Of a stretch of 64,000 bases of DNA, positions 1 through 2,103 are shown one piece after another. The notes under the pieces are model-generated. The model was not told where the DNA came from. It ran no database searches and worked only from the letters and a program-made list of their open reading frames with translations. The stretch's first letter is position 1. Every line of letters begins with the position of its first letter. This stretch comes from Thioalkalivibrio sp. ALMg11. GTDB taxonomy: Bacteria; Pseudomonadota; Gammaproteobacteria; Ectothiorhodospirales; Ectothiorhodospiraceae. The stretch is from NCBI RefSeq assembly GCF_000377905.1, contig NZ_KB898877.1, forward strand, positions 1 through 64,000, given 5' to 3'. Both the position numbers and the translations under genes were made by a program.

Positions 1-85
1 ACGCGACACCGGAACGCCGCAGCGAAGCGAAGGCGGCCCGGAGGGCGGACGGCGAAGCCGTGCGTAATCCCTCCCTCTCCGCCAG
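1..85 (+). repeat. 3' part of a T-loop-insert tRNA-like element (copy C, cut by window edge)
   Basis: The segment ends with the 3' half of a serine-tRNA T-arm and acceptor (ATCCCTCCCTCTCCGCCA, 67-84). The preceding bases are not a tRNA but a run of small hairpins: CCC-GGA-GGG (38-47 region) and ACGGC-GAA-GCCGT (49-61). Copies at 143-269 and 1784-1941 have the same order of hairpins just before the same ATCC junction, so this is the right end of the same kind of element. Its left end lies outside the window, so a serine tRNA or a further element copy may sit just upstream. Confidence 0.6.
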
Positions 86-116: not shown

Positions 117-142
117 CGCGTTCTTGGCCACAGATGCCTGGA

Positions 143-269
143 GATTCGAACCCGAGGAATAAAGAAATTCAGGTTCGACTGGCGCCACATAGTGGCGCCA
201 GAACGTCGCCGCAGGCGACGACCCGAAGGGTGAGGCGCAACGCGCCGAGCAATCCCTCCCTCTCCGCCA
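143..269 (+). repeat. T-loop-insert tRNA-like element (copy A)
   Basis: Order seen: an inverted T-arm (GATTCGAACC, 143-152), a short AT-richer spacer, GGTTCGA (172-178), a 73-nt insert (179-251), then the serine-tRNA 3' end ATCCCTCCCTCTCCGCCA (252-269). The insert folds on inspection into four hairpins: CTGGCGCCAC-ATA-GTGGCGCCAG, CGTCGCC-GCA-GGCGACG, CCC-GAA-GGG and GGCGC-AAC-GCGCC. No tRNA 5' half precedes it, so this is not a simple interrupted tRNA. It lies in tandem with copy C. I do not recognise a named family. Confidence 0.7.
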
Positions 270-1744: not shown

Positions 1745-1773
1745 TTGCCAGCCCGCCCCCCTTGCCAGACAAT
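1745..1773 (+). promoter_or_regulatory. Promoter of the interrupted tRNA-Ser unit
   Basis: TTGCCA, 17-base spacer, GACAAT, ten bases before the tRNA-like 5' end. It is essentially identical to the promoter of the intact copy at 1973-2001, so the interrupted copy could still be transcribed. Confidence 0.65.
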
Positions 1774-1783
1774 GCCCAGCCTC

Positions 1784-1941
1784 GGAGAGGTGGCAGAGTG
1801 GTCGATTGCACCGGTCTTGAAAACCGGCAGGGGTGAAAGCCCCTCGAGGGTTCGACAAGGCGGCGCAGCCGCCGCAGGACGTTGCCGCCAGGCAACGCCC
1901 GAAGGGTGAGGACCGCAGGTCCGAATCTATCCCTCCCTCTC
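1784..1941 (+). pseudogene. tRNA-Ser(UGA) copy interrupted in the T-loop
   Basis: From 1784 to 1855 the sequence matches the intact tRNA-Ser at 2012 base for base, through acceptor 5' strand, D-arm, anticodon arm (loop CTTGAAA, anticodon TGA), variable arm and T-loop as far as TTCGA. A 73-nt foreign segment follows (1856-1928), then the T-arm resumes with ATCCCTCCCTCTC (1929-1941). The last bases and CCA are replaced by a GTGGCC-GCGA-GGCCAC hairpin. It therefore cannot mature into a normal tRNA, although promoter and 5' half are intact. The intact copy 228 bp downstream supplies the function. Confidence 0.85.
1856..1928 (+). repeat. 73-nt four-hairpin T-loop insert (copy B)
   Basis: The insert contains GGCGGC-GCA-GCCGCC, CGTTGCC-GCCA-GGCAACG, CCC-GAA-GGG followed by TGA, and GGACC-GCA-GGTCC. 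It has exactly the same length and hairpin order as the insert of copy A (179-251), while three of the four stems have different, compensated sequences. The shared unpaired core is CCCGAAGGGTGAGG. The insertion point is after T-loop position 58 (TTCGA). Confidence 0.8.
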
Positions 1942-1972
1942 GTGGCCGCGAGGCCACGCGGGCCACCCCCGG

Positions 1973-2001
1973 TTGCCAGCCCGCCCCCCTTGCCAGACAA
2001 T
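1973..2001 (+). promoter_or_regulatory. Promoter of intact tRNA-Ser
   Basis: TTGCCA, 17 bases, GACAAT, ten bases before the tRNA. About 60 bases of this upstream region are a direct repeat of 1740-1783, so the tandem duplication included promoter and gene. Confidence 0.7.
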
Positions 2002-2011
2002 GCTCAGCCTC

Positions 2012-2103
<92 letters not shown>

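Follow-up and report, generated by a model that had tools for sequence, protein, structure and literature searches.

A 73-base insert in the T-loop of a duplicated tRNA-Ser gene of Thioalkalivibrio matches the RtT RNA family

Introduction

Near the start of a contig of Thioalkalivibrio sp. ALMg11 (NZ_KB898877.1, assembly GCF_000377905.1), a tRNA-Ser gene is present twice in close succession, and one of the two copies is interrupted in its T-loop. What is the inserted sequence, and what is it doing inside a tRNA? A first-pass annotation, made from the letters of the sequence, knew of no named element that inserts at this position and suggested either a compact mobile element or a processed RNA. 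Here we analyze the stretch of 64,000 nucleotides that begins at the first base of the contig (hereafter, the window) and compare it with related genomes.

The interrupted tRNA-Ser gene and its neighbors

By direct comparison, the interrupted copy (1784-1855) and the intact one (2012-2083) are identical at 72 of 72 bases. After TTCGA, the former carries 73 additional bases (1856-1928), and the tail then continues (ATCCCTCC / ATCCCTCCCTCTC), just as the first-pass annotation had described. A detail absent from that description is that CCA is missing from the interrupted copy, with a GC hairpin, CGTGGCC-GCGA-GGCCACG, from 1941 on. The 48 bases before each copy agree at 44 positions, and thus the duplication takes in the leader. 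Two pairs of promoter-like hexamers were found in positions 1-2400 against 0.3 expected, by consensus match only.

Judged by its sequence, the insert is an RtT RNA (Rfam RF00391), a member of a known and poorly understood family of bacterial small RNAs that occupies a single fixed site at the ends of tRNA genes in many gammaproteobacteria. The hallmark of the family, a core that contains CCCGNAGGG and is flanked by the GGTTCGA and ATCC of a tRNA tail, is present. A second insert, which we call copy A (179-251), also has 73 bases and the same junction as the one in the interrupted tRNA (copy B), and the two have 55 aligned bases in common. The unit of copy A (138-269) matches RF00391 at 57.2 bits, above the curated cut-off of 45 bits, whereas copy B (1812-1946) does not reach it (37.6 bits, E 4.4e-05). 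Copy B was aligned over model positions 1-130, yet its 5' half is the tRNA body, and for this reason we file it as an RtT variant. A third, partial copy at 1-66 is cut off by the contig start, base 1 of the window being base 1 of the contig. Copy B stands upstream of the intact tRNA-Ser; any tRNA before copy A would fall beyond the contig start.

The resemblance of copies A and B noted at first pass stands as regards junction, length and order of hairpins, except that their equal length is partly luck, since cores elsewhere mostly measure about 62-84 nt. The claim that no named element inserts here fails, RF00391 being already listed for Thioalkalivibrio in the available part of PMC8092127. 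Elsewhere, sources available in part present RtT as a small RNA from the tyrT operon of E. coli or from tRNA operons. The features of the window are as follows; type 1, the form of most units, denotes a core that lies within a duplicated tRNA tail and is closed by an antisense arm against the local tRNA, and type 2 a core in the T-loop of a complete tRNA copy, as in the interrupted tRNA-Ser.

1-66, forward strand: 3' part of a partial RtT core, unit cut by the contig start (RF00391, 21.6 bits, 5' truncated)
67-84, forward strand: duplicated tRNA-Ser tail ATCCCTCCCTCTCCGCCA of the contig-start unit, identical to the tail at 2084-2101
140-157, forward strand: antisense T-arm of a tRNA-Ser (GGAGATTCGAACCCGAGG), the 5' arm of type 1 copy A, seen by eye; the fold pairs TCGAACC with GGTTCGA
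172-178, forward strand: GGTTCGA, 5' side of the T-loop junction of copy A, read from the sequence
179-251, forward strand: RtT core of copy A, from Rfam match, folding and comparison
179-201, 204-220, 221-231 (CCCGAAGGG hairpin) and 234-246, forward strand: hairpins of copy A, predicted fold
252-269, forward strand: duplicated tRNA-Ser tail with CCA, copy A, by comparison
1745-1773, forward strand: promoter-like hexamers before the interrupted tRNA, the same as at 1973-2001, by consensus match only
1784-1855, forward strand: tRNA-Ser(TGA) body up to TTCGA, type 2 copy, identical to 2012-2083 (72/72)
1856-1928, forward strand: RtT core of copy B, within the T-loop (RF00391, 37.6 bits, E 4.4e-05, under the 45-bit cut-off)
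1929-1941, forward strand: remainder of the T-loop, T-stem and acceptor 3' strand, lacking discriminator and CCA, by comparison
1941-1958, forward strand: GC hairpin replacing the CCA end, from the sequence; a similar hairpin occurs in genomes G021, G026, G040 and G025
1973-2001, forward strand: promoter-like hexamers before the intact tRNA, by consensus match only
2012-2101, forward strand: intact tRNA-Ser(TGA), from tRNA and Rfam annotation

Both tRNA-Ser copies also gave weak matches to the Rfam family sX4 (2006-2149, 31.8 bits; 1778-1878, 21.4 bits; cut-off 70).

Distribution and anatomy of RtT units

Further copies at T-loop junctions, which the first-pass annotation had made a test of its idea, were found in the genome of the window, in the samples of its family, class and phylum, and in named genomes. 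The window's genome has eight RF00391 matches at E<=1, and the RtT layout was confirmed on reading at tRNA-Gln(ctg), tRNA-Gln(ttg) and tRNA-Ser(gct) besides the window. The match at C4:350274 (E 0.85), with no tRNA in the stretch examined, looks spurious. RF00391 is present in 32 of 47 genomes of the window's family (E<=0.01), in 64 of 377 of the class sample and in 37 of 396 of the phylum sample (both at E<=0.001). At megablast sensitivity, 4,680 of 5,426 E. coli genomes have an RtT match, in one to nine places each (median 2), and 746 have none; 18 places are on plasmids (reference locus NC_000913.3:1287066-1287236).

The RtT core, about 60-85 nt long, is flanked by the GGTTCGA and ATCC of a tRNA 3' end. 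Type 1 units of many genomes have one order: an intact tRNA, usually a terminator-like palindrome, the antisense arm, GGTTCGA, the core, and ATCC with the tail. The arm is antisense to the T-arm, and often also to part of the acceptor, of the same tRNA, and the core is made up of three variable hairpins and the CCCGNAGGG hairpin. In an alignment of 63 sequences, GTTCG is invariant and the preceding G and following A nearly so, the invariance of TTCG and of a CCC..GGG-like motif being partly by construction, as unit parsing demanded both. The arms of 141 units have the consensus GGAT-NN-GAACC, in which NN is TC in 67, GA in 52, TT in 12 and other in 10. Against the GA of GGTTCGA, TC would form Watson-Crick pairs, GA a tandem G-A motif and TT G-U pairs; a tandem GA motif is named in RtT in the available part of a structure study (PMC7657543).

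The tRNAs of 164 parsed units are Gln (69), Ser (60), Tyr (23), Arg (7), Glu (2), Lys (2) and Pro (1), about half a dozen units being mis-parsed at the 5' side. This set was reduced from 175, using a slightly different key, by dropping cores with a second GTTCGA, two tRNA-Ala calls and cores devoid of the motif. Nine of the 164 do not start at GGTTCG[AG] (L024, L046, L068, L091, L144-L147 and L171, with L068 a chance parse), and L159 begins at a tRNA's own T-loop. In Thioalkalivibrio, the units mostly follow tRNA-Ser, -Gln and -Arg. Among the 54 best-match loci of the class and phylum samples, a same-strand tRNA ends within 120 nt upstream at 44 of the 47 that could be parsed.

Named genomes were scanned independently with a pattern that includes no tail beyond ATCC, which gave at least 160 units in 119 stretches. 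Among the matches listed, a tRNA precedes the unit on the same strand in 131 of 160 cases, and 29 units lack one in the stretch. At 86 of 94 tRNA loci, no more than 120 nt separate the tRNA from its nearest unit, and 111 of the 131 tails agree with the upstream tRNA at 15 or more of 17 bases. Tyr (36/94) and Lys (21/94) lead among the tRNA loci listed for all 119 stretches.

That the arms are local is also apparent from their sequences. Over 141 units, an arm matches its own tRNA tail at a mean of 9.0 of 14 positions and tails of other amino acids at 7.1, the first value being an upper estimate because the anchor was chosen for best fit to the own tail; 12 of 153 type 1 units, for which there was no anchor, were left out. 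By eye, Ser arms in Thioalkalivibrio often span the T-stem alone, and we consequently dropped the idea that the arm is universally a full acceptor-stem mimic. At L089 and L123, arms and tails stand in a sense-antisense-sense arrangement directly after the tRNA. In the open-licence literature, we found no account of arms specific to the local tRNA or of bacterial insertions in the T-loop.

Cores within whole tRNA copies

Type 2 was found in Thioalkalivibrio, in a second family, in Sedimenticola, in a Muproteobacteria MAG and in Photorhabdus. CCA is lost everywhere except in Photorhabdus, mostly with a hairpin in its place, and simply lost in the Muproteobacteria MAG. At tRNA-Gln(ttg), seven Thioalkalivibrio genomes have type 2 copies, up to three in tandem. 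The tRNA-Ser(tga) form of the window has matches over at least 150 of 192 bases in 8 of 30 Thioalkalivibrio genomes, of which five were read (G016, G024 and G023 were left out); in G025, much of the core is lost.

In the second family, genome G138 has three type 2 copies spaced 213 bp apart at tRNA-Gln(ttg) and a further one at tRNA-Ser(tga). Genome G789 has, at tRNA-Gln(ttg), a type 2 copy, after which come the intact tRNA and then a type 1 unit, an order also present in Thioalkalivibrio. In the stretches read, the Sedimenticola MAG (Ser gga) and the Muproteobacteria MAG (Ser gct) have one type 2 copy each, upstream of the intact tRNA. Photorhabdus has type 2 arrays in tRNA-Lys, with the core in the T-loop, and copies at tRNA-Tyr, all with CCA kept. 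The arrays include L310:5169-6480 and L242, with a period of 175-176 bp, and L245, with eight matched units.

Among the matches listed for named genomes, 24 of 109 units are type 2 (three were too short to call) and 22 of these are in Photorhabdus, calls that cover 80 of the 119 stretches and depend on a tRNA library that may include interrupted copies; in the other genomes, type 2 accounts for 10 of 157 units. Since 22 of the 24 listed type 2 units of the named set keep CCA, being those of Photorhabdus, loss of charging is not general. At the loci read, an intact copy of the same tRNA adjoins the type 2 copies, except at L249, where the stretch ends before any intact copy; L278, on the same contig, has an intact tRNA-Tyr. 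Because type 2 bodies are homogenized with their intact neighbor, the conservation of the body is no proof of function. In the type 2 copy of L132, the anticodon loop is changed and the anticodon stem is kept.

The window thus holds a known family in an unusual form. It shares with RtT (rtT/rttR of the E. coli tyrT operon) the core, the GGTTCGA..ATCC junction, the duplicated tail, the antisense arm and the tandem units. It differs in that copy B lies in a complete tRNA body with a hairpin for CCA, and Thioalkalivibrio units are on Ser, Gln and Arg tRNAs rather than on Tyr. The unusual trait is the position of this core within a full extra tRNA copy. REP and BIME are likewise short repeated hairpin elements of gammaproteobacteria, but REP sequences are located in general intergenic DNA, whereas RtT is bound to tRNA tails on one strand. 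In the available part of PMC2965389, members of a BIME cluster are said to be similar to rtT.

Folding and covariation

Compared with dinucleotide shuffles, the core of copy A folds better than expected both as RNA (z -4.8) and as DNA (z -6.0), with 0 of 200 shuffles as good in either case. For copy B, the values are z -3.1 as RNA (2/200 as good) and z -3.4 as DNA (0/200). Four hairpins are predicted in copy A; in the RNA fold of copy B, the CCC-GAA-GGG hairpin opens in favor of a competing stem.

The first-pass annotation had observed that the stems remain paired while their sequences change, and had proposed covariation beyond chance as a check. Using RNAalifold on the 63-sequence alignment, only 10 pairs were recovered, four of them with two-sided change; hairpin length varies in this alignment, and we therefore carried out the covariation analysis on 26 distinct Ser units from a single genus, Thioalkalivibrio. 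In these, 94.2% of stem cells are paired, and two-sided changes occur in 12 of 25 pairs (48 cells; 0/500 shuffles as high). The structure was written from the same alignment, which makes the analysis partly circular for the percentage paired and less so for the two-sided changes. With a covariation score of 0.235, the units exceed both the shuffles (0.095; 0/500 as high) and the slid controls, which do not go beyond 0.077; the shuffles leave relatedness in place. Further pair types (19 against 17.5 in shuffles, 121/500 as high) are not above shuffles. Four of five measures thus exceed the shuffles, and the observation of conserved pairing is upheld. The last hairpin of the window copy is an example: it reads GGACC/GGTCC in G000 and G040 and GGCCC/GGGCC in G021 and G026.

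A possible role for RtT units

We hold, with about even confidence, that RtT is a co-transcribed structured RNA module that makes mimics of tRNA ends and spreads by recombination, the copies of the window being known from their sequence. The family, its junction, the local arms, covariation, both types, tandem arrays and decay are the observed traits on which this reading builds. According to it, the core would be a compact structured module placed at GGTTCGA^ATCC of tRNA 3' ends and transcribed with its tRNA, giving a small RNA with a tRNA-derived end. In type 1, pairing of the duplicated tail with the antisense arm would hold the core; in type 2, the whole tRNA cloverleaf would hold it in the T-loop, with CCA lost. 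The type 2 RNA of the window would then fold like a tRNA and not be chargeable. Recombination between tRNA tails, together with tandem duplication, may be the source of new sites and arrays.

Expression of RtT is consistent with this reading. The available parts of two papers report RtT sRNA among the RNAs upregulated at low temperature in a study of two Thioalkalivibrio strains (PMC8092127) and RtT Northern signals in Actinobacillus (PMC4986893). The idea of a processed RNA, raised at first pass, fits these reports; for the copies of the window, such an RNA is predicted. RtT RNAs may act as non-decoding mimics or decoys of tRNA ends, for instance for tRNA-handling enzymes or in the response to amino-acid starvation. 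Such a decoy role would be in line with a link between RtT and amino-acid starvation that PMC4986893, in its available part, attributes to Bosl and Kersten 1991.

More tentatively, and with clearly less than even confidence, RtT may be a transferable RNA domain with one fixed T-loop address and host-derived arms, capturing the end of the adjacent tRNA, with type 2 making tandem arrays of tRNA mimics that are mostly unchargeable outside Photorhabdus. If the anatomy described here is right, RtT is a widespread module that always occupies the same position in tRNA genes, has host-specific arms and comes in a second form that mimics a whole tRNA; its role in the starvation response, tRNA processing or gene spread could be tested by simple deletions in laboratory strains. 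There is also a warning for annotation: tRNA finders report some interrupted copies as tRNA genes, as ARAGORN does with some of the core-bearing Photorhabdus copies, which it calls as tRNA-Lys.

Inheritance, mobility and decay

A selfish, non-autonomous mobile module that targets the T-loop sequence GGTTCGAATCC, copies arms and tail from its target and yields RNA as a by-product is a rather unlikely alternative that still has evidence on its side. Cores on tRNA-Gln(ttg) in G011 and on tRNA-Ser(gga) in G148, genomes of different families, are 93% alike, with local arms and tails. This is the most similar pair between families; the next pairs on different amino acids reach 88%. Over 146 units, with core lengths that include the A of ATCC, core identity across families is 0.689 for the same amino acid and 0.687 for different ones, as a mobile module would predict. 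As baseline identity is high, this missing signal is weak evidence; within families, where cores are in general more alike, the values are 0.776 and 0.727. The type 2 copies of Photorhabdus also look like a core dropped into a redundant tRNA-Lys gene and then amplified.

Against this, cores of Enterobacterales appear to follow their tRNA more than their genus: Tyr or Lys cores compared across genera have an identity of 0.773, above the 0.717 of Tyr-Lys comparisons within one genus, which makes the selfish module less likely. In addition, the RtT unit at tRNA-Gln(ctg) is common to three genera in full, decayed and empty states, which argues for old inheritance followed by loss. Among 30 genomes, the tail of this region was located in 25, while it was not located in three and two had no match; of the 25, 13 have a core, one is cut by the contig end, nine keep the 5' part only (one of these standing behind a 12-kb insertion) and two are empty. 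The first-pass idea of a mobile element therefore stands in part, with respect to the one pair of 93% similar cores on different tRNAs with local arms; the shared tRNA-Gln(ctg) unit, which often decays in place, and the Enterobacterales cores speak against it.

Some rearrangements at these loci may be mentioned. About 12 kb are inserted at tRNA-Gln(ctg) (L234, L232; G001:C4:402735-415143), and over 49 bp the 3' half of the tRNA is repeated. An RtT remnant stands after the far end of the insertion, which is probably an island. At L233 (G004), the RtT unit is interrupted after AAGGTTC by a sequence that, as we take it, resembles a REP palindrome pair. In G026 (L060:1016-4780, reverse strand), two nearly identical units lie about 3.4 kb apart at tRNA-Arg(acg), and between them are a partial tRNA copy and a sequence that we take for a putative transposase.

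Structure at the RNA or the DNA level

The structure could instead matter as DNA, with no role for the RNA: template switching during replication at palindromic tRNA ends would keep the hairpins perfect and make the arms, or the hairpins would serve a single-strand DNA step. We regard this as improbable, and yet several signals point in its direction. C-GNA-G triloops, which are very stable in DNA, account for 101 of 225 hairpin loops in RtT. Shuffled cores have them in 13 of 538 loops and RNase P RNA in one of 249, where GNRA loops take their place (49 of 249). In RNAfold structures, G-U pairs make up 4.3% in RtT cores (7.9% when shuffled) and 10.6% in RNase P RNA (10.6% when shuffled). On alignments, the ratio of G-U to A-C, pooled over five RtT sets, is 57:18, against 192:6 in RNase P RNA and 81:8 in the RNase P RNA of six genomes of the window's own family; the Ser set alone gives 5:4, and the Tyr set rests on four pairs. 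G-U is thus preferred less strongly than in RNase P RNA, and less than a plain structural RNA would lead one to expect. The sense-antisense-sense arrangements of L089 and L123 would also suit a DNA mechanism. The dominance of GNA triloops and the scarcity of wobble pairs are what keep explanations at the DNA level in play.

On the other side are the expression of RtT RNAs reported in the available parts of PMC4986893 and PMC8092127, and the arms, whose positions 1-6 have 67 G-U against 18 A-C, although 40 of the 67 fall at one position. A further comparison with a hairpin finder restricted to Watson-Crick pairs was discarded: its low G-U share is nearly equal in RtT (0.6%) and in RNase P RNA (0.7%), and it cannot separate DNA from RNA.

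Dead tRNA pseudogenes left by recombination, with no present role, would account for the decay at orthologous sites. Type 2 copies could also result from a deletion that joins the GGTTCGA of a tRNA to that of a unit, and the pair-type measure that is not above shuffles makes this explanation slightly more likely. It remains very improbable in view of the two-sided stem changes, matched by 0 of 500 shuffles, and of the last hairpin of the window copy, changed on both sides between species.

Introns can interrupt the T-loop in archaeal and algal tRNAs, and bacterial group I and II introns also insert in tRNA genes, although they are much larger and usually found in the anticodon region. An insert spliced out to leave a working tRNA is hardly credible here, even though its removal would restore the T-loop and the Photorhabdus copies keep complete tRNA ends: the window copy has no splicing sign and no CCA, intact copies adjoin type 2 at the loci read except L249, the anticodon loop of L132 is altered with its stem kept, and no Rfam intron family matched, whether in the window at the gathering cut-off or in positions 1-2400 at E<=1.

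Finally, GGA in hairpin loops might be read as a sponge for CsrA, a reading that we rejected as not typical of Thioalkalivibrio cores. Among 78 units, loops with GGA or GGG that are of neither the GNA nor the GNRA type were counted in 14 of 63 first hairpins and in 17 of 76 third hairpins. In several other families, RtT loops read CAGGACG or CAGGATG (L093, L126, L127, L143, L034 and L163; third hairpin), which is presumably the repeated CsrA-binding motif of CsrB, and these loops are possible CsrA ligands.
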